Shown piece after piece: positions 3,001 to 11,751 of a stretch of DNA of 40,751 bases; position 1 is the stretch's first letter; every line of letters begins with the position of its first letter. The stretch covers positions 1 through 40,751 of the forward strand of contig JANYHS010000187.1 of NCBI GenBank assembly GCA_025358945.1, read 5' to 3'. The position numbers were made by a program, and so were the translations under genes. Under the pieces are notes generated by a model. The model was not told where the DNA came from. It did no database searches and saw nothing but the letters and a program-made list of their open reading frames with translations. The stretch comes from Acidobacteriota bacterium (lineage in GTDB: Bacteria; Acidobacteriota; Vicinamibacteria; Vicinamibacterales; CAVVIG01).

Positions 3001-3404
3001 GCGTGCGCAAGGTCGATGCGAAAACACAGATCATCACCACCGTCGCCGGTAGTGGCAACTGGGGCAACGCCGGCGACGACGGTCCGGCGACAATCGCGCG
3101 GCTGGCGGGACCGGCCGGCATCGCCGTCGTCAACGAGCCGGGCGGCAAGGTGACCCTCTTCATCGCCGACTTCTACAACGGCCACGTGCGCGCGGTCGGC
3201 CCCGATGGCATCATCCGCGACCTCAGCGATGAGGGCCGCGAAGCCTTCGGTGCGCCAACGCGAGTCGCCTATGACCCGCGGCGCGGCTTCCTGTACGTCG
3301 CTGATTCGAGCCAGGATCGGGTCGTGCCGCTGATCATCCCGAAGATTGCGCCCAACCTCGTGCCGCCGAAGCCGGTGTTGCCACCGCGGAGGATCGGCGG
3401 ATGA
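1..3404 (+). CDS. Glycosidase-GT2-membrane-NHL repeat fusion protein (5' partial)
   Basis: The frame is open from base 3 without a start, so the M at 198 in the ORF track is internal and the gene begins outside the window. The visible N-terminus resembles the C-terminal half of a GH2-like TIM barrel: a LLLAEAG strand offering a candidate nucleophile Glu, then FAWTDEWWRGG and an RRLKPAA ending. A GT2 domain follows (track residues about 91-330), with VSVVVCAYNAADT, VNDGSKD, YTDADTRVD (DxD) and GDDVDVCWR. Hydrophobic segments lie near residues 380-415, 575-600, 625-645 and 685-705. At least five NHL-type repeats (IYIADSNNDVIRRV, IVADSHNDRIRRV, IYIADTLNYRIRM) fill residues about 720-1050. I infer a membrane protein that processes and elongates a glycan, with a beta-propeller outside the membrane. 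The ABC exporter gene overlaps its stop. The substrate is unknown. Confidence 0.85.
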   Translation, partial: FLRSLYEGCKTISPDSLFTYVNFPPTEFLDLSFLDICAFNVYLHREPELRAYLARLQHIAGQKPLLLAEAGADSLREGEVQQADITSMHVRAAFEEGACGAIAFAWTDEWWRGGHPVDDWKFGLVDHQRRLKPAAASVASAFADAPFSREQQRAWPRVSVVVCAYNAADTLEDNLRSLEQLTYPDFEIILVNDGSKDRTSEIGRSFASVRVIDTPNAGLSAARNVGLAQATGDIVAYTDADTRVDRDWLTFLVQPFLTSDVVGSGGPNVVPADDPPIAQCIARAPGGPTHVLLDDRIAEHVPGCNMAFRRDALLAIDGFNPIYLRAGDDVDVCWRLQARGWRIGFASSALVWHHHRSSVKAYWRQQVGYGEGETWLMAHHPEKFLDGRMLWRGRIYSPLPFVRSLWGTRINAGVWGTAAFPSVYRTDVHPFAFLPNSIKWQVLSYILTLAGIGVALTGQHHWTSYILLGAGVIGVAATVAKNIDYALRSDVDSLSGSKIWYRLTVAYLHFIQPLARLHGRIRGVLSPPPVAVPASAPQTSRGPRPSLAEAWRALLLISGNVTEDRFWSETWTSADRVLARLTDWLRRSRAVRSIEIDEGWSDDRDVSVFVGRWAWVDVRALVEEHAGGKVLVRISTHLRPTTFGFVAAMGIGAALLVGAASPALMHWRLPGSVGAFLAGATSNSVLFWRTAGTIVSSLAVALIIGVGWRTAQTTAIVRRGIARVTLGAGMVAMPSSAARAPLIAPSLLRMYGLRSAFIFVLMIVTLGASTFMLREAAIGPVIGGQKGYSGDYGSPMYAWLDAPGGLAIAPNGDIYIADSNNDVIRRVNANNTIIEPIAGNHDLGAGFSGDNGPAIVAQLDTPDGVAIAPDGDLIVADSHNDRIRRVDRPTRIITTVAGSGENGYDGDDKPATEAALNTPSAVAAAPNGDIYIADTLNYRIRMIDAKTGLIHTVAGDGLPGDPQSVGDGGPATSAHLNMPSDVAYDPKTGDLYIADMHHNRVRKVDAKTQIITTVAGSGNWGNAGDDGPATIARLAGPAGIAVVNEPGGKVTLFIADFYNGHVRAVGPDGIIRDLSDEGREAFGAPTRVAYDPRRGFLYVADSSQDRVVPLIIPKIAPNLVPPKPVLPPRRIGG

Positions 3405-5281
3405 GCGAGCCGACCAAGCCGGCGGAGGTGAACGCGACCGACGGTCTGCTGCGCTGGATGCTGACGTACCTGCGTCCGTACCGCCCGCGTGTCGCGGTGC
3501 TGTCGGTGCTGCTGGTGTCGGAAATCATCCTCGGCGCGCTGCAGCCGTGGCCACTCGCAATCGTCATCGACTACGTGTTGACGCCGGCGGCGCTCGGTGG
3601 CAAAGCGTTTCCGTCGGCGGTGCAGCCGTGGATCACGGCGCTCACGCACGACAACCGCTTCACGCTGCTCATCGCCGTGGTCGTGGCCGGCGTGGTGCTG
3701 CAGGTGGTGAATCAGTTCGTGTCGGCGTACGGCACGCAAGTGCAGGTGGATACCGGGCAGCGGATGGTCTACGACCTGCGCGGGAAGCTGTTCGCGCACC
3801 TGACGGCGCTCGGCCTGCACCATCACATCACGACCAGCACGGCTGACGCCGTCTATCGCGTGGACGTGGACGCCTACGCGATCGAAAACCTGGTGATGAG
3901 CGGGCTGTTCCCGCTCGCGACGTCGACGATCGCCCTGACGGTGATGTTCGGCGTCCTGCTGCGGATGAACGTGACGATCGCGCTGCTGTCGCTGACCGTG
4001 GTGCCGTTCATGTACCTCTGCCTGCGCTACTACACCAAGACGCTGGTCAACCGCGAGGAGCGCGTCAAGGAATTCGAGGCGAAGTTGATGGGGCGGCTGT
4101 ACGAGACGTTCGGTGCGATGAAGCTGGTCAAGAGCTTCGCGCGCGAGCCGTTCGAGTTGCAGCGCTACGCGACCACCGGCGTGACGACGATGAACGCGCG
4201 GATCAAGCTGACGTGGCAGCAGTCGATCTTCTCGGTCGTCGTCAGCACCATCACCATCCTCGGCACCGCGCTGGTCGTCATCGTCGGCGGCCGCTTCGTG
4301 ATGAGCGGCCGGCTGACCATCGGCGAGCTGACGGTCGTCATCAGCTATCTCGCCGCCGTGTACGGCCCGCTCTCCGCGATCGCGCACACCACGGGACAGC
4401 TGCAGGGCGCCCTCGCGGGCACCAAGCGCGTGCGCGCGATGTTCGCCCTGATCCCGGAGACGGTCGAAGCGCCTGGCGCCATCGACGCAACCGACATCAA
4501 GGGCGACATCCGCGTCGAGGATGTCGGGTTCACGTACCCGAACGGCACGCGCGTGCTGCACGACATTTCGTTCGCGGCCAAGCCGGGCGAAGTGATCGCG
4601 CTGGTCGGCCTCACCGGCGCCGGCAAGACGACGCTGGTCAGCCTGATCCCGCGCTTCTTCGACGCGACCGTCGGACGCGTGACGATTGACGGCGTCGACG
4701 TGCGGCAGTACCGCATACGATCGCTGCGCGAGAAAATCGCCATCGTCTTGCAGGAACCGGTGCTGTTTGCGGGCACCATCGCCGACAACCTGCGCTACGG
4801 CCGCCTCGACGCGACCGACGCGGAGATCGAGCAGGCGGCGCGCGCCGCGCATGCGCACGACTTCATCGCGCGGCTGCCGAAGGGATATCAGACGGAGATC
4901 GCGCAGGCCGGCGGCGGCTTGTCAGGCGGCGAGCGTCAGCGGCTTAGCGTCGCGCGGGCTATCTTGAAGAACGCCCCGATCCTCATTCTCGACGAACCGA
5001 CCTCGTCGCTCGATTCGATTTCGGAAGAGATCGTGTTTTCGGCGCTGCGGCAACTGCGCGCCGGTCGCACGACGATCGTCATCGCGCACCGGTTATCGAC
5101 CGTCCGCGACGCCGATCGCATTCTCGTGCTCGACGGCGGCGAGATTGCCGCGCAGGGACGGCACGAGGAGCTGCTGACGTCGAGTCAGCTCTATCGCCGG
5201 ATGTGCGCGCGGCTGTCGGTTGGCAAGTCCCTCGACGATCCCGAGAGTGTCGACGAGCTGATCGAGGCGGCCAAACGGTGA
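3401..5281 (+). CDS. MsbA-like ABC exporter (fused permease and ATPase)
   Basis: At 626 aa this is the usual size of a half-transporter that works as a homodimer. The N-terminal half (about 25-330) is the type IV exporter membrane domain. The ATPase domain has Walker A GLTGAGKTT (about 402-410), Q-loop LQEPVLFAGTI, signature LSGGERQRL, Walker B ILILDEP with its catalytic Glu, and the switch His in IAHRLSTV, so it should be active. The start ATG overlaps the previous stop by 4 nt (ATGA), which indicates translational coupling. Surrounded by glycosyltransferases, it probably flips or exports a glycolipid or lipid-linked oligosaccharide. That substrate is inferred from context only, because the same fold also serves lipid A, peptides and drugs. 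Confidence 0.93.
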   Translation: MSEPTKPAEVNATDGLLRWMLTYLRPYRPRVAVLSVLLVSEIILGALQPWPLAIVIDYVLTPAALGGKAFPSAVQPWITALTHDNRFTLLIAVVVAGVVLQVVNQFVSAYGTQVQVDTGQRMVYDLRGKLFAHLTALGLHHHITTSTADAVYRVDVDAYAIENLVMSGLFPLATSTIALTVMFGVLLRMNVTIALLSLTVVPFMYLCLRYYTKTLVNREERVKEFEAKLMGRLYETFGAMKLVKSFAREPFELQRYATTGVTTMNARIKLTWQQSIFSVVVSTITILGTALVVIVGGRFVMSGRLTIGELTVVISYLAAVYGPLSAIAHTTGQLQGALAGTKRVRAMFALIPETVEAPGAIDATDIKGDIRVEDVGFTYPNGTRVLHDISFAAKPGEVIALVGLTGAGKTTLVSLIPRFFDATVGRVTIDGVDVRQYRIRSLREKIAIVLQEPVLFAGTIADNLRYGRLDATDAEIEQAARAAHAHDFIARLPKGYQTEIAQAGGGLSGGERQRLSVARAILKNAPILILDEPTSSLDSISEEIVFSALRQLRAGRTTIVIAHRLSTVRDADRILVLDGGEIAAQGRHEELLTSSQLYRRMCARLSVGKSLDDPESVDELIEAAKR

Positions 5282-6396
5282 AAATTCTGTTCGCCGGCAT
5301 CATCGCGCGATATCCGTTCGGCGGCGTCACGTGGTGTTCACTGATGTACCTGCTCGGCCTGCGCGCACTAGGGCACGAGGTCTTCTACATCGAGGACACC
5401 GGCGAGTGTGTCTACGACCCGATCCTGAACACGCGCGCGACCGATCCGATCTACGGCACGACCTACATCAACAACGCACTCGAGCCGTACGGCCTCGGCG
5501 ACCGCTGGTCGTTCGTGAACTACGACGGCGGGTATCACGGCCGGACCGCGGACGAGGTGCGCCGTTTCGCGGCCGACGCGGACCTGTTCATCAACCTGTC
5601 CGGTGGATCGTGGTTCTGGCGAGACGAGTACGTGCGGATTCCGCACAAAGTGTTCATCGACTCGGATCCCGCGTTTACCCAGCTCGCGATCGCGAAGGCG
5701 GAACCATGGTACGTGGACTTCTTCCAGCGTTTCGATCACCTGTTCACGTTCGGGTCGAACATCGGCACGCCGGCGTCGCCGATTCCCACCGGCGCGTTCA
5801 CGTGGCGCAAGACCTGGCAGCCGGTCACCATGGACGATTGGCGGACGGACACGGCGCCGCGCGACCGCTTCACATCGGTGATGACCTGGCAGATTGAGAG
5901 TTTTGCCGACGTCGGCGGCAACAAGGATCAGGAGTTCGTGAAGTTCATCGAGCTGCCGTCGAAGACTCCGCAGCGTTTCGAGCTGGCGATCAACGGCCCG
6001 CAGGCGCTGTTGCGGCAGTACGGATGGGACACCGCGGACGCCATGGCCGTGTCGCGCACGCCGCCCGAGTACCGCGCGTTCATCCAGGAATCGAAGGCGG
6101 AATTCGGCGTCGCCAAGCACACCTACGTCGCCAACCGCTCCGGATGGTTCAGCGATCGGACGGAGTGCTATCTCGCCGCCGGCCGCCCTGCGCTCGTGCA
6201 GGACACCGGCTGGACCGCGCACCTGCCGTCCGGCGAGGGCCTGCTCGCCTTCTCGAACATGGACGAAGCGTTGGCCGGGATTGACCGCATCAACAGCGAC
6301 TACAACATGCACGCGCGTCGCGCGTCCGAAATCGCCCACGCGCACTTTGACGCCCGCGTCGTGTTGCCGCGGCTGCTGGAGACGGCCACGCGATGA
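5278..6396 (+). CDS. GT-B type glycosyltransferase-like protein
   Basis: I choose the GTG at 5278, which overlaps the ABC stop (GTGA). The ATG at 5203 in the ORF track would lie inside the ABC gene. The product is 372 aa. It opens with a Rossmann strand and loop, KILFAGIIARYPFGG, followed by LGLRALGHEVFYIEDTG, the usual GT-B N-lobe layout. The C-lobe has SDRTECYLAAGRPALVQDTG followed by a terminal helix (EIAHAHFDARVVLPRLLE), matching the nucleotide-sugar side of GT-B enzymes. No HPxxE or EAMACG-type motif identifies a family, so donor and acceptor are unknown. The next gene starts within its stop codon. Glycosyltransferase function is likely but rests on fold-level resemblance and the neighbours. 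Confidence 0.75.
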   Translation: MKILFAGIIARYPFGGVTWCSLMYLLGLRALGHEVFYIEDTGECVYDPILNTRATDPIYGTTYINNALEPYGLGDRWSFVNYDGGYHGRTADEVRRFAADADLFINLSGGSWFWRDEYVRIPHKVFIDSDPAFTQLAIAKAEPWYVDFFQRFDHLFTFGSNIGTPASPIPTGAFTWRKTWQPVTMDDWRTDTAPRDRFTSVMTWQIESFADVGGNKDQEFVKFIELPSKTPQRFELAINGPQALLRQYGWDTADAMAVSRTPPEYRAFIQESKAEFGVAKHTYVANRSGWFSDRTECYLAAGRPALVQDTGWTAHLPSGEGLLAFSNMDEALAGIDRINSDYNMHARRASEIAHAHFDARVVLPRLLETATR

Positions 6397-7424
6397 GAAT
6401 CGCCCATATCGCACCCGTCGCCACGACCGTCCCGCCGCCGAAGTCAGGCTCCGTCGAGACGATGACGTCGCTGCTGACCGAAGGACTGGTCGCGCGCGGC
6501 CACGACGTCACGTTGTTTGCGACCGCCGACTCGAAGACGAAAGCGAAGCTGCACGCCATCTACCCGCATGGCTACTGGCACGACGAGCACATGTGGCCGT
6601 GGGAGCTCTACGAGATGCTGAACCTGGCGGCCGCGGTCGAGCGCGCGTCCGAGTTCGACATCATCCACTACGAGGCGGCGTACTACCCGATGTCGCTCGC
6701 CTTCACGCGCCTCTCGTCGACGCCGATCGTCCAGACGCTGCACCACTCACCGAGCGGCGCGGAGGTGAAACTCTGGTCACGTTACCCGGAGGCGCCGTTT
6801 GTCGCCATCTCGAACGAACAGGCCAGCCTGCTCAAGGGCCTCAACGTCGTCGGCAACGTGCTGCACGGCGTCGACACCGACAACTTCACGTTTCAGGAAA
6901 CACCCGAGGACTACCTGCTGTTCCTCGGCCGGTTCACCGACGGCAAAGGCCCGCTGCAGGCGATCGAGCTCGCCAAGCGGATGGACATGAAACTGATCCT
7001 CGCTGCGGCCGAAGACGACTACTATCGCGAGCGCGTGGCGCCGCACGTCGATGGCCGCCGCGTCGTGTATTTCGGCGAGGCCGATTTTCAGGCGAAGGTA
7101 AAGCTGTACGGCGGCGCGCGCGCGCTGCTCTATCCGATTCAGGCCCGCGAGCCGTTCGGGCTGGTGCTGGCCGAAGCGATGGCGTGCGGCACGCCGGTCG
7201 CCGCCCTCGATCGCGGCGCCGTCCGGGAAGTCGTGGACGAAGGCGTCACCGGACTGATCTTCGACGACCTGGAACAGATGGCCAACGGGCTGTCCCGCGT
7301 GTTCGATCTCGATCGTCGCCGCGTGCACGAGCGCGCGGTCGCCCGGTTCGGCACCAAACGCATGGTTGACGAGTACATCGCCGTCTACACCCGCATCGTG
7401 GAGGCCCATCGTGCCCGAGGCTAG
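6393..7424 (+). CDS. GT4 family glycosyltransferase
   Basis: A 343-aa protein that starts in an ATGA overlap with the previous gene. The N-lobe begins MRIAHIAPVATTVPPPKSGS, typical of GT4 enzymes with a Gly-rich acceptor loop, and continues with LVARGHDVTLFATADS. The C-lobe contains the retaining GT-B signature PFGLVLAEAMACGTPVAAL, in which the Glu pair contacts the nucleotide sugar, then GAVREVVDEGVTGLIFDD. It should be a cytoplasmic or membrane-associated retaining glycosyltransferase. It directly follows another GT-B gene, so the two may add consecutive sugars to one chain. The actual sugar cannot be read from the sequence. Confidence 0.92.
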   Translation: MRIAHIAPVATTVPPPKSGSVETMTSLLTEGLVARGHDVTLFATADSKTKAKLHAIYPHGYWHDEHMWPWELYEMLNLAAAVERASEFDIIHYEAAYYPMSLAFTRLSSTPIVQTLHHSPSGAEVKLWSRYPEAPFVAISNEQASLLKGLNVVGNVLHGVDTDNFTFQETPEDYLLFLGRFTDGKGPLQAIELAKRMDMKLILAAAEDDYYRERVAPHVDGRRVVYFGEADFQAKVKLYGGARALLYPIQAREPFGLVLAEAMACGTPVAALDRGAVREVVDEGVTGLIFDDLEQMANGLSRVFDLDRRRVHERAVARFGTKRMVDEYIAVYTRIVEAHRARG

Positions 7425-8223
7425 CGCCGCACTCCCGTTCGCGGGTCGAACCGTCCTCGGCATCTTTGCTCACCCAGACGATGAGTCGCTGGCGTGCGGG
7501 GGCACACTGGCGCGCCTGGCGGACGCCGGCGCGCACGTCGTCGTCGTCTGCGCCTCGCACGGCGAAGCGGGATCGATCAGCGATCCCGCGTTGGTGCCGG
7601 ACGGCGATCTGGGCCGCGTCCGCGTGCGGGAGCTGCGCGACGCCGCGGCCGTGCTCGGCGTCGCCGAGGTCATCGTGCTCGATCACCCCGACGGCGACCT
7701 CCGCTGGGAACACGTCCCGGAGCTGCACGCGGAGATCGTGGCGCTGATTGAACGCTACCGACCCGCGGCGGTGATCACGTTCGCGGAAGACGGACTCTAC
7801 TGGCACCTCGATCACATCGGCGTGCACGAGCGGACCTACACCGCTGTGCTGTCGCTCGGCGCTGCGGCGCCGCCGCTCTACTACGTGACCATGCAGCCCG
7901 GCGTGATGCGCGAAGTGGTCGAAGCCGCGCACGCCAAGGGCGGCGCACCGCCCGATTCCAGCTTCTGGGGCATCGCGCCGGACGCATTCGGTGACGGCGC
8001 GAACCCGCCGACTTTCGTCATCGACGTGCGTGACTGGGCCGCGCGCAAGCTGGCGGCGCTGCGCTGTCACCGGACACAGATGGGCCCCAACAACCCGATG
8101 GCGTGGATCGACGAGGACGAAGCGCGGCGCTGGCTCGGCGTCGAACAGTTCCAGCGCGCGCCCATCGACGCGACTGGTGACGCCGTCCTCGAACATCTCG
8201 GCGAAATCACCCATGCGGATTGA
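7411..8223 (+). CDS. PIG-L/LmbE family deacetylase
   Basis: The product is 270 aa. I place the start at GTG 7411, since GGAGG lies six bases upstream and the ATG at 7366 sits deeper inside the GT4 gene. Zinc-site motifs of the N-acetylglucosaminyl deacetylase family are present: AHPDDE near the N-terminus and HLDHIGVH in the middle, the latter supplying the third metal ligand. Known relatives remove the acetyl group from GlcNAc-containing lipids or small thiol precursors (GlcNAc-PI, mycothiol, bacillithiol). Here it overlaps the GT4 gene by 14 nt and the methyltransferase gene by 11 nt, so de-N-acetylation of a sugar placed by the neighbouring GTs is the simplest reading. A role in a low-molecular-weight thiol pathway cannot be excluded. 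Confidence 0.9.
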   Translation: MPEASAALPFAGRTVLGIFAHPDDESLACGGTLARLADAGAHVVVVCASHGEAGSISDPALVPDGDLGRVRVRELRDAAAVLGVAEVIVLDHPDGDLRWEHVPELHAEIVALIERYRPAAVITFAEDGLYWHLDHIGVHERTYTAVLSLGAAAPPLYYVTMQPGVMREVVEAAHAKGGAPPDSSFWGIAPDAFGDGANPPTFVIDVRDWAARKLAALRCHRTQMGPNNPMAWIDEDEARRWLGVEQFQRAPIDATGDAVLEHLGEITHAD

Positions 8224-9469
8224 GACCCTCGACGTCCTCCGCTGCCCGTACTGCGGCGGACGGCTGTCCCTGGTCGATTCCATTTTTCACCGCCGCACCG
8301 ACAACCAGATCCACGACGGCATCCTCGGCTGCCACTGCTGCATTTTCCCTCTCGTTGACGGCATCCCGGTGCTGCACGTGCTGCCGGCGGCAACGGTCGC
8401 GCGCGATCATCTTCAGGCCGGCCGCCCGGAGCTGGCGCGCCGCGCGATGTTCGGACTGGATAACGACAGCGACGCGGAGGCCTTCGACGCGGTGGCCTCC
8501 TCGAACACCGCAACGTATCGCGACACCGTCGAGGCGCTCGGACCGAATTTCGAGGGCGGCTACTTCCTCTATCGCTTCTCCGACCCCACCTACATCGTCG
8601 CGCAGGCAGTGGCGCGCGCGGTGGGCGCGACAGTACTCGGAGGCAAGCGCCGCGCCATCGACATCTGCGGCGGATCGGGTCACGTGACGCGGACGCTGCT
8701 CGACTTGTCGGAGATGCCGCCGGTGCTCGCGGATCTGTATTTCGCAAAGGTGTGGCTCGCACGACGGTTCACGGCGCCAGGATGCGAGCCCGTCTGCTGC
8801 GACGGCAACGCACCGATGCCATTCGCCCGCGGTACGTTCAGCTTCGCCATGTGCACCGACGCGTTCATGTACATCTGGACGAAGCGGCAGTTCGTCGGCG
8901 AGATGGAGCGGCTGGTTGAGGCGCGCGCGCCAGGGGCCGAACCCGGCGCGGTGCTGATCGGACACACGCACAACGAGCGCACGTGGACGCCGTCGCACGG
9001 ACAGCCGCTGTCGCCCGAGGGCTATCGCGATCTGTTCGAGACCTTCGAGCCGCGGATCTTCGGCGAAGGCAACCTCTTCACCGATGTCGTTGCCGGTGGT
9101 CCGCTGGACCTCTCGCGCCGCGACAGCCAGGACACGCTCGACAAGAGTCCGGCACTAGCCATCGTCGCCAGCCGTCACCCAGGTGTCTTCGCGAAGCATC
9201 CGCTGACGCCGCCGGATACGGCCGCGGGCGAGTTACGGATCAACCCGCTCTACACGCAGGAGGCCGACGGTGACCGCGTGCGCCTGACGCTGGTGTTCCC
9301 GAACGAGGAATATGCGGACGAATACGGTGCGTGCCGTCAGTACCTGCCCGAAGCGCTGACGCTCGACCGCTCGGCGGTCGCCGCGCTGTCCAGCGGCCGG
9401 GTCTCGGGAGAATTCGTCGAACTGCTCCGCAGAAAAGTCATCGTCGATCTGCCGAAGCGCTATTATTAG
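8213..9469 (+). CDS. Zinc-ribbon (Trm112-like) plus SAM methyltransferase domain protein
   Basis: A 418-aa protein starting at ATG 8213, 11 nt before the PIG-L stop. The long ORF-track start at 7991 is inside PIG-L and is rejected. The N-terminal 50 residues form a Trm112-like zinc ribbon: LRCPYCGGRL, then a second pair in GCHCCIFPLVDGIPVLH. The middle (about 125-250) is a class I methyltransferase: RAIDICGGSGHVTRTL is motif I, and PMPFARGTFSFAMCTDAFMYI corresponds to the post-II/IV region. The last 120 residues have no assignment I recognise. Fusions of this type are common in glycan and secondary-metabolite clusters, where they methylate sugars or lipids. The substrate here is unknown. Confidence 0.82.
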   Translation: MRIETLDVLRCPYCGGRLSLVDSIFHRRTDNQIHDGILGCHCCIFPLVDGIPVLHVLPAATVARDHLQAGRPELARRAMFGLDNDSDAEAFDAVASSNTATYRDTVEALGPNFEGGYFLYRFSDPTYIVAQAVARAVGATVLGGKRRAIDICGGSGHVTRTLLDLSEMPPVLADLYFAKVWLARRFTAPGCEPVCCDGNAPMPFARGTFSFAMCTDAFMYIWTKRQFVGEMERLVEARAPGAEPGAVLIGHTHNERTWTPSHGQPLSPEGYRDLFETFEPRIFGEGNLFTDVVAGGPLDLSRRDSQDTLDKSPALAIVASRHPGVFAKHPLTPPDTAAGELRINPLYTQEADGDRVRLTLVFPNEEYADEYGACRQYLPEALTLDRSAVAALSSGRVSGEFVELLRRKVIVDLPKRYY

Positions 9470-9474
9470 CTCCG

Positions 9475-10239
9475 ATGCGTTCGACGTCTGCGGCCCTGCG
9501 CCGCGCCGCCCGCGCCCACTTCACGGACTCTTCCAAACGCCGGGGTCTGTTGATTGCATTCGAGGGGCCCGACGGTTCCGGCAAGACCACCCAGCGAAAA
9601 CTCTTCAAGACCTGGCTCAAATCTGAAGGCTACGACGTCGTCACGACGAAGTGGAACTCGTCGGATCTGATCAAGCCGATCATCAAGAGCCGCAAGGCGG
9701 TTCACGCGCTCAGCCCCGAGGAGTTCTCGCTGCTGCACGCCGCTGATTTCCGCCATCGCGTCGAGGAGGTGATCCTGCCGGCGCTGTGGGAGGGCAAGTT
9801 GGTCATCGCCGACCGATTTCTCTTCACGGGCCTGGCACGCGACGTCGCGCGCGGTCTCGATCTCGATTGGGTGCTGAGGCTGTACCAGCCGCTGCTGTGG
9901 CCGGACCTGGTGTTCTACTTCGCCGTCTCGCCAGGAACATCCGGCAAGCGCGTCACCGCGGTGCGCATGCCGAGCTTCTACGAGGCGGGCCAGGACGTCA
10001 CCCAGGTGGACGATCCGGTCGAAAGCTATCAGCGCTTCATCGGGCGTGTGATTCGCGAGTACGAGTCGCTGGCGCTGATCTTCAACATGATCACTGTGGA
10101 CGCCGAACAGTCGATCGGCGAGCAGCATTATCTGATCCGCCGGCTGTTTCTCGAGGGACAAGACCGCCCGTGGTCCGACTGGAACGCCGACGCTGTCGCG
10201 GAGTGGCTCGCGCTCAAGGGCGACAAGGCGGGCCGGTGA
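9475..10239 (+). CDS. Thymidylate kinase-like P-loop kinase
   Basis: A 254-aa protein starting at ATG 9475, five bases after the methyltransferase stop; the ORF-track start at 9331 lies inside that gene. The Walker A is intact in the dTMP-kinase style: LIAFEGPDGSGKTTQRKLF. DRFLFTGLARD stands where dTMP kinases have DRY. The LID region differs from housekeeping enzymes (SGKRVTAVRMPSFYEAGQ) and the protein has an extra basic N-terminus (RRAARAHF). It ends in an overlap with a second, degenerate copy. Given the company of GTs, a deacetylase and a methyltransferase, I doubt that dTMP is its substrate. A role in phosphorylating a cluster intermediate is inference only. Confidence 0.83.
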   Translation: MRSTSAALRRAARAHFTDSSKRRGLLIAFEGPDGSGKTTQRKLFKTWLKSEGYDVVTTKWNSSDLIKPIIKSRKAVHALSPEEFSLLHAADFRHRVEEVILPALWEGKLVIADRFLFTGLARDVARGLDLDWVLRLYQPLLWPDLVFYFAVSPGTSGKRVTAVRMPSFYEAGQDVTQVDDPVESYQRFIGRVIREYESLALIFNMITVDAEQSIGEQHYLIRRLFLEGQDRPWSDWNADAVAEWLALKGDKAGR

Positions 10240-10763
10240 CGAAGAAGAACACGCCGCCGCAGTTGATCGCGGTCGATGGCGTGGACGCTGCGGCCGTGCA
10301 GGCCGAGGCCAGGATCGCGCTGGGATCGCCCTCGCGCGGCGGCATCAGCCGGTGGGATGCCTCCGGCGTGTTTCAGGAACTGGCGGTCGCCGAAGAGGCG
10401 GCAGGTACGCCGTCGGCGCGCACGCTCCTGTTGCTGTACGCCGCCGATCTCGCGTTCAGGCTGCGCTGGCAGATCCGGCCCGCACTCGCCGAAGGCCGCA
10501 CCGTTGTGGCCGCGCCATACATCGACACCGCGATGGCGTTCGGACGCGCAGCGGGTTTGAAGCCCTCGTGGCTCACCAATCTGTTTCGCTTTGCGCCGCG
10601 CCCGAAGCACCGGCGGTTCGTGGCCCTGAGCAAGGGCCGCGCGGCAGCGGTGAAGGATGGGTTCGTTGGTTTCAGCTCGCAGCGCATCGCGGACCACGCC
10701 GGGGGCTCGCGCCGGCAGATCATCGAAGCGACTGCCGCGCAGTTGCGCCGGCTCGCGCGATAA
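10236..10763 (+). CDS. Degenerate thymidylate kinase-like protein without P-loop
   Basis: The ORF track starts this frame at 9786, inside the previous gene. The real start is probably GTG 10236 in a GTGA overlap, giving 175 aa. The protein aligns by eye with dTMP-kinase-like proteins: LIAVDGVDAAAVQAEARIAL replaces the beta1/P-loop, with no G-x4-GK[ST], and VVAAPYIDTAMAFGRAAG stands where VV-DRY-TA-AYGRA would be, so the DR is gone too. The intervening helix (LLLLYAADLAFRLRWQIRPAL) is well kept and the frame is clean. That argues for a preserved non-catalytic subunit or regulator of the adjacent kinase rather than a decaying gene. It is the last gene of the run. Confidence 0.78.
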   Translation: MTKKNTPPQLIAVDGVDAAAVQAEARIALGSPSRGGISRWDASGVFQELAVAEEAAGTPSARTLLLLYAADLAFRLRWQIRPALAEGRTVVAAPYIDTAMAFGRAAGLKPSWLTNLFRFAPRPKHRRFVALSKGRAAAVKDGFVGFSSQRIADHAGGSRRQIIEATAAQLRRLAR

Positions 10764-10815: not shown

Positions 10816-11751
10816 TCAGCATGGGACGCCGTCGTCAGCGCCTGCCTCTGCGGCGCGTCCTTCGGCCGCCGCCTCTCGGATGGTGCGGAACAGTTCCGCT
10901 GCCTCGGCCACCGCCGACGCCTCGGTGACGACGATCGCAACCTCGCGGCGGAAGTCGAGGCTGAGCGCAGCCAGCGCGAGACTGCCAATGACCACCGTCT
11001 CCTCGTCGATGAGCATGATCTTCCCGTGCGATCGCAAATCGCCGAGATGTTTCGCGGAAAACACTTCGACCGTCATGCCCGACGCCCGCTTCGCATTCAG
11101 CAGCGAGACGAGATCGGGATCCGACAACTTCGCGTCGATCAACCGGATGCTGGTCCGCGCCCCTTCAATCAGCGCCGTGAACTGCCGCCGCGCGCGCTCG
11201 GGTCCGACGATTAACCGCTCCGCCAGATCGTCGGGCATCGCCTGACGTGCGCAATCGGCCACCCACAACCGCCGAAGATCGGCCACCACTGCAGGATCGT
11301 ACGTCACCACCAGCGCGTCGCAGGTCTTCTTGAAACACTTCTTCGTGAAGTTCAGCGACGCGACGATAGCCGGGCCGTCATCGGCGACCAGATACTTGGG
11401 GTGATATTTCACGACGGCATCGGTGTAGGAATGCAGCGCCGCACCTGTTTCCTCGAGCGCGTGCCACAGCTGCACCATCTTCTTGCGGCCACCCTTGGCG
11501 CGAGAGGTGACGAGCACTTCGACGATCACGCCGCGCGTCACCGCCGCGGCAAGTTCCTCGAAGACCGCCGTGTCGTTGCAGCGGAAGAGCGACAGCGTGA
11601 TACGCGTGCGCGCGTGGCGAATGACGTCGAGCAACGCGGCCTGGCGATCACCGACCGACGTGATCAGGCGATCCGGCGGCACCGCCCTGGCGGCGTTCAT
11701 GCGCGTTTCCATGTCGGACAAAAGAACGGGGCTTAAGGCTCGTCTCGGCAT
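10816..11751 (-). CDS. Phospholipase D superfamily protein
   Basis: A 311-aa protein with two HKD-type motifs, KYHPKYLVADD and SHGKIMLIDEE, each followed by a hydrophobic strand and Ser/Thr-containing segment (VASLNFTKK, VVIGSLALAA). This is the arrangement of bacterial PLD-fold phosphodiesterases, nucleases and cardiolipin synthases. No signal peptide is evident, so a cytoplasmic role is likely. The ORF-track start at 11769 would be TTG. I prefer ATG 11751, preceded by an AT-rich stretch with TATATT that could be a -10 element; ATGs at 11712 and 11700 are further options. It converges with the glycan cluster and is not part of it. The substrate is unresolved. Confidence 0.85.
   Translation of the reverse strand: MPRRALSPVLLSDMETRMNAARAVPPDRLITSVGDRQAALLDVIRHARTRITLSLFRCNDTAVFEELAAAVTRGVIVEVLVTSRAKGGRKKMVQLWHALEETGAALHSYTDAVVKYHPKYLVADDGPAIVASLNFTKKCFKKTCDALVVTYDPAVVADLRRLWVADCARQAMPDDLAERLIVGPERARRQFTALIEGARTSIRLIDAKLSDPDLVSLLNAKRASGMTVEVFSAKHLGDLRSHGKIMLIDEETVVIGSLALAALSLDFRREVAIVVTEASAVAEAAELFRTIREAAAEGRAAEAGADDGVPC

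Follow-up and report, generated by a model that had tools for sequence, protein, structure and literature searches.

Enzymes with a thymidylate-kinase-like fold have been linked to polyphosphate chemistry; two-domain PPK2 proteins (e.g. PA3455 of P. aeruginosa) join an active and an inactive copy of this fold (PMC8776046), and ST1543 of Sulfolobus tokodaii (PDB 2plr, 4nzy, 4rzx, 5h70), which was deposited as a dTMP kinase, is among the structures nearest to PPK2 outside PPK2 itself (PMC4748334). Members of the Sulfolobales accumulate polyphosphate although neither PPK1 nor PPK2 is known from them, and its synthesis in this order, as in many bacteria that lack PPK1, has yet to be explained (PMC6864096, PMC7831078). 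The Sulfolobales maintain a conserved SixA-PPX-dTMP kinase-CHAD gene cluster, in which the dTMP kinase is not necessarily ST1543 (PMC10892726), and CHAD is a polyphosphate-binding module (PMC6537752). In streptococci, clostridia and bifidobacteria, genes for CotH, a poly-phosphate polymerase and DUF4956 are clustered, for example beside Pel loci (PMC7112168). In older papers, the name "PPK3" refers to PPK2 homologues or to an actin-related protein, and in the literature consulted we found no earlier proposal of a thymidylate-kinase-like polyphosphate synthase or pseudokinase.

The stretch of Acidobacteriota DNA analysed here (40,751 nucleotides, hereafter the window) contains two overlapping genes, tmkA and tmkB (Table 1), and elsewhere in the same genome lies a second tandem of the same subfamily, designated A'/B'. 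With canonical thymidylate kinases (TIGR00041, PF02223), TmkA has the fold, the P-loop and the DR motif in common, but it differs from them in belonging to a separate clade (support 100/92), in its acceptor-site motifs, in its pseudokinase partner and in its gene neighbours. With two-domain PPK2, the likeness consists of an active plus an inactive copy of a thymidylate-kinase-like fold; however, PPK2 is a single chain with the inactive half first and prefers using up polyphosphate, whereas here there are two genes with the active copy first. Neither TmkA nor TmkB belongs to the PPK2 family PF03976, which gave zero matches in the genome encoding both tandems. The link to the Sulfolobales drawn below is based on the PDB sequence of ST1543 and on the papers cited above.

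An active thymidylate-kinase-like protein is encoded beside a partner without P-loop

TmkA is a member of the thymidylate kinase family. Its score of 91 bits for PF02223 lies well over the cut-off of 27, and with 101.6 bits it also exceeds the cut-off of 83.25 set for TIGR00041, the NCBI dTMP-kinase profile. The P-loop and the DR motif, both features of a functional dTMP kinase, are present in TmkA and absent from TmkB. When sequences were aligned, the canonical acceptor-site motifs of dTMP kinases (ADR/ANR, AY and a REPGG-type motif) were found to be missing from TmkA, A' and ST1543, which instead have in common WNSS for the REPGG-type motif, ADF for ADR/ANR and AR for AY. We take the altered positions to be dTMP contacts in ordinary thymidylate kinases, the arginine of ADR/ANR presumably being the canonical acceptor-phosphate arginine. 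An ordinary thymidylate kinase is also encoded elsewhere in the window's genome, and it retains ANR and AYG.

Table 1. Features of the tmkA/tmkB locus (positions within the window)
Feature	Position	Strand	Description	Basis
tmkA	9475-10239	+	active member of the thymidylate-kinase family, 254 aa	profile matches, motifs
GPDGSGKTT	9565-9591	+	Walker A motif (P-loop) of tmkA	
TTKWNSS	9643-9663	+	in tmkA; signature of the subfamily including ST1543	alignment
HAADF	9736-9750	+	in tmkA; F where ordinary thymidylate kinases have the ADR/ANR arginine	alignment
ADR(F)	9808-9819	+	DR motif of tmkA	
GTGA	10236-10239	+	tmkB GTG start overlapping the tmkA stop (translational coupling)	
tmkB	10236-10763	+	pseudokinase, 175 aa; predicted thymidylate-kinase fold, lacks both the P-loop and the DR motif	
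GVDAAAVQ	10278-10301	+	at the P-loop place of tmkB	
SRWDAS	10347-10364	+	in tmkB; WDAS invariant, counterpart of WNSS in tmkA	
YAADLAFRLRW	10437-10469	+	most conserved helix of tmkB	
AAPY	10509-10520	+	at the xDRY place of tmkB	
PLD-superfamily gene	10816-11712	-	convergent with tmkA/tmkB; two HKD motifs	only neighbour in 18 of 18 loci
HGKIMLIDE	11002-11028	-	HKD motif of the PLD gene	
HPKYLVADD	11377-11403	-	HKD motif of the PLD gene	

TmkB stayed below the PF02223 cut-off of 27, with a match of 23 bits over residues 56-125. Comparison of a tmkA-family profile with a tmkB-family profile nevertheless gave a probability of 97.7% (E=2e-12), and the structure predicted for TmkB (pLDDT 85.5, pTM 0.84) has a thymidylate-kinase fold; all 50 PDB matches listed for this model were thymidylate kinases, and the best eight were all ST1543 chains. 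An initial annotation, which had proposed a kinase and a pseudokinase of one fold from an intact Walker A motif in the first protein, the replacement of P-loop and DR motif in the second and a GTGA overlap of the two genes, was thus borne out on each of these points.

The pair and its motif losses are conserved

We assembled 18 tmkB loci, namely the window, seven relatives in public acidobacterial genomes and ten from a survey of 396 Acidobacteriota genomes. The P-loop and the DR motif were both missing from tmkB in all 18, and in none of them was the reading frame interrupted; an intact tmkA, with its P-loop, lay directly upstream in every one of the 17 loci that extend far enough in that direction. 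Recurrence of the same two losses at all 18 loci makes the observation more than chance. Among tmkB sequences at about 40% identity, WDAS, the YAADLAFRLRW helix and AAPY are invariant or nearly so, and pairwise dN/dS ranged from 0.08 to 0.38 for tmkB, compared with 0.07 to 0.16 for tmkA. The orthologous loci without the motifs, together with these ratios, indicate that tmkB is not decaying; tmkA/tmkB is a conserved kinase/pseudokinase pair, in which the motif loss is conserved across orthologues and under selection.

TmkA is related to ST1543

ST1543 is the nearest solved relative of TmkA (154.6 bits, the next scoring 66.7 bits), is the closest fold match of the TmkB model, and shares the WNSS, ADF and ARD motifs with TmkA. 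To our knowledge ST1543 has no pseudokinase partner, in which it differs from TmkA. In a phylogenetic tree, tmkA, tmkB, A' and B' each formed one clade, and together with ST1543 they were set apart from ordinary thymidylate kinases (100/92). A single clade for both pseudokinases (B plus B') was weakly rejected (AU p=0.026), with tmkB on a long branch; a tree in which B was grouped with A was not rejected (p=0.064). Since B and B' have no clear common clade, the pseudokinase subunit may have arisen twice.

A second, Ppx-linked tandem replaces PPK1

The second tandem of the window's genome (L062:4228-5674, i.e. G000:C5:4228-5674) lies in a neighbourhood of Ppx, CHAD and SixA genes and carries GIDGSGKT in A' and GTDGVGRS in B'. 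The Walker lysine (GxGK) was present in every A' found, and an arginine took its place (GxGR) in B' of 35 out of 35 genomes; genes of the Ppx/GppA, CHAD or SixA-like families, as assigned by Pfam, adjoined A'/B' in 25 of 35. Such an arrangement had initially been considered rare for this family; B' was, however, found in 40 of the 396 Acidobacteriota genomes.

In the same survey PPK1 was found in 229 genomes and PPK2 in 238, four marginal matches being left out. PPK2 mainly uses polyphosphate. Five genomes had both the tandem and PPK1, 35 the tandem only, 224 PPK1 only and 132 neither (Fisher p=6e-10), and the corresponding numbers for PPK2-bearing genomes were 5, 27, 194 and 12 (p=2e-21); these p-values are inflated by shared ancestry, although seven families contain both states. 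Expressed differently, A'/B' occurred in 27 of 39 genomes with PPK2 and without PPK1, as against 5 of 199 with both; the other 12 of the 39, several of them incomplete, had no A'/B' either. Stratification by family preserved the exclusion (z=-4.75). In the seven mixed families (f1, f3, f31, f37, f40, f50 and f68), members with the tandem had no PPK1, with one exception in f3, and members without the tandem mostly had PPK1. CHAD proteins were encoded in 178 of 224 genomes with PPK1 only, 31 of 35 with the tandem only and all 5 with both, but in just 7 of the 132 that had neither, so that the tandem is as good a predictor of polyphosphate machinery as PPK1. Together these data indicate that, from genome to genome, the second tandem takes the place of PPK1 and is accompanied by CHAD proteins.

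In the window's genome, profile searches found no PPK1 (PF13089), PPK2 (PF03976) or VTC, and a CHAD gene adjoins the second tandem. The distribution of the window-type pair was of another kind; of the 11 surveyed genomes that contain it, nine had PPK1 and two the second tandem. As it mostly coexists with PPK1, the window-type pair cannot be needed as a sole polyphosphate synthase.

A PLD-superfamily gene is the constant neighbour of the window's pair

Besides the invariant PLD-superfamily gene, genes for CotH, a phosphate-selective porin O/P and DUF4956 were each found near the pair in 14 of 18 loci, and the cluster order DUF4956-PLD-porin-CotH recurs across the phylum, either convergent or divergent relative to the pair. 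CotH is a protein kinase family. At the window's own locus the PLD gene has been kept and CotH, porin and DUF4956 have been lost, while a remnant of CotH is still present at locus L006. To the C-terminal domains of PPK1 the PLD protein had only sub-threshold similarity, as is the case for PLD-fold proteins. Upstream of the pair, positions 3401-9469 of the window contain ABC transporter, glycosyltransferase, PIG-L-type deacetylase and Trm112/methyltransferase-like genes, an order that is conserved with L006 and partly with L054, both close kin only; this region is a glycan cluster conserved at family level and has no tie to the kinase pair.

When compared with the CotH/DUF4956/VTC clusters of other bacteria, the likeness resides in the CotH and DUF4956 genes around the window-type pair; what sets the window type apart is the presence of the kinase pair, along with genes for a PLD-fold protein and a porin, and the lack of a VTC gene, none being found in the 11 surveyed genomes with a window-type pair. 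The DUF4956 and VTC profiles matched the same 3 of 14 control genomes. The window's genome does have a stand-alone gene for a DUF4956 membrane protein, at a distance from the pair (G000:C46:23476-23826, L102), and at L009 (4504-5503) the PLD gene is broken over two frames, which reflects either an assembly error or a real loss.

A proposed role in polyphosphate metabolism

We propose, with a probability of about one half, that TmkA/TmkB and A'/B' serve polyphosphate metabolism as heteromeric kinase/pseudokinase enzymes; the Ppx-linked type would be a candidate for the missing polyphosphate synthase and the window's pair its paralogue. According to this proposal, tmkA and tmkB would encode two subunits of a single phosphotransferase, the first catalytic and the second not. 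The enzyme would presumably be a heteromer, the initial annotation having suggested a heterodimer, and would come from a thymidylate-kinase-fold subfamily in which Sulfolobus ST1543 and the Ppx/CHAD-linked tandem are also placed. TmkA would bind the nucleotide donor in its intact P-loop and would be the only subunit to hold it; TmkB, which appears to have lost the donor site and kept the fold, the WDAS motif and a central arginine-rich helix, may have been retained as a structural or acceptor-binding partner, by analogy with the inactive half of two-domain PPK2. TmkB would then shape or hold the acceptor, presumably phosphate or polyphosphate; the direction of the reaction, like the acceptor, is a matter of inference, and the enzymes would act in phosphate/polyphosphate metabolism rather than in dTMP synthesis.

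For the Ppx-linked pair, the likeliest activity would be the making of polyphosphate in PPK1-less genomes, a claim for which we see roughly even odds. The window's pair would be a paralogue whose partner is the PLD-fold enzyme, joined in most genomes by CotH, DUF4956 and the phosphate-selective porin; that its role is related to polyphosphate, and is not identical to that of the Ppx-linked tandem, appears to us evenly balanced. More tentatively, and with the odds somewhat against it, the tandem might represent a third kind of prokaryotic polyphosphate synthase, a two-subunit enzyme of thymidylate-kinase fold that replaces PPK1 in about one-tenth of Acidobacteriota; its relative ST1543 would mark the synthase long sought in the Sulfolobales, and the PLD-linked pair of the window would be a paralogue, its pseudokinase probably of independent origin, that substitutes for the VTC polymerase within a CotH/DUF4956 cluster. 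The genomic pattern provides a concrete two-gene candidate for polyphosphate synthesis without PPK1, and a pseudokinase subunit is documented in a kinase family to which annotation pipelines would give no label beyond "dTMP kinase".

Counting against the proposal are the exceptions to the pairing and the uncertain domain placement in a fused model, both described below, the 12 genomes with PPK2 that have neither PPK1 nor A'/B', the frequent coexistence of the window's type with PPK1, the loss of CotH, porin and DUF4956 from the window's locus, the score of TmkA above the dTMP-kinase cut-off and the deposition of ST1543, its closest solved structure, as a dTMP kinase. The latter two points favour a different reading, in which TmkA is a dTMP (or other nucleoside monophosphate) kinase supplying dTDP, TmkB is its regulatory dead partner and the polyphosphate neighbours are incidental; we regard this as unlikely, given that the genome already has an ordinary thymidylate kinase, that TmkA and ST1543 have lost acceptor-site features which the ordinary copy keeps (ADR/ANR to ADF, AY to AR, REPGG-type to WNSS), and that the distribution of the sister tandem tracks PPK1 and CHAD, not nucleotide metabolism. 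It is a real, if doubtful, possibility that the pair acts jointly with the PLD-fold enzyme and the CotH kinase to phosphorylate an acceptor in the envelope, such as a lipid or a protein, and that the polyphosphate link holds for the second tandem only. The presence of a PLD-superfamily gene as the sole invariant neighbour, the membership of CotH in a protein kinase family and the co-occurrence of the window's type with PPK1 in 9 of 11 genomes are all in keeping with an envelope acceptor; the phosphate-selective porin and DUF4956 neighbours, the close relation of the window's type to the Ppx/CHAD-linked type and the presence of a polyphosphate synthase, or its candidate, in 11 of 11 genomes speak against it.

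That the pair consists of sugar or glycan kinases of the adjoining glycosyltransferase cluster is very unlikely. This setting, in which the initial annotation had placed the pair, is suggested by the glycosyltransferase, deacetylase, methyltransferase and ABC transporter genes upstream, but these accompany the pair only in its close kin L006 and L054, whereas PLD, CotH, porin and DUF4956 genes persist elsewhere; of that annotation's reading, the conserved pairing stood (18 loci), and the glycan setting and the rarity did not. An anti-phage function is still harder to credit. Among the named families in PADLOC and NCBIfam, DrmC of DISARM comes closest to the PLD protein, yet the PLD protein scored 55.8 bits for DrmC (NF038319) against a cut-off of 133, no other DISARM or defence gene was recognised beside it, TmkA and TmkB had marginal or zero matches, and the cluster persists across orders, as a defence island would not. 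Least probable, and to be dismissed for practical purposes, is that tmkB is a decaying duplicate without function; its rate of evolution reaches about four times that of tmkA, but decay is refuted by the orthologues, none of which has a P-loop and all 18 of which are open with an invariant WDAS and a central helix conserved to about 40% identity, as well as by dN/dS well below 1 and a confidently predicted fold.

Exceptions to the pairing and same-frame A'/B' genes

Pairing of the two subunits is not absolute; in G131 a window-type tmkA (L068:6683-7462) has no tmkB beside it, and in G237, where the contig provides 935 bases upstream of a B' gene (L098:3207-3902), no A' was recognised in them. 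At L011 (7202-7873) the tmkA frame is shorter than in the nearly identical L012, probably owing to an assembly base error. Spread of the second tandem on plasmids was considered and rejected, as a tblastn search of A' against 72,556 plasmid records returned zero matches.

A fused A'/B' protein was modelled as the putative read-through product of a same-frame pair in G068, with TGA translated as Ser for the sole purpose of linking the two chains; the alignment supplied consisted of three fused rows plus A' rows, since single-subunit B rows had all aligned to the A half. The model contained two good domains (pLDDT 82) without confident mutual placement (pTM 0.52). In G068, and likewise in G165 and G123 (L082:2981-4360, L083:1765-3399 and L084:1726-3360, respectively, all on minus strands), B' lies in frame right behind the A' stop codon, which is TGA in each of the three.
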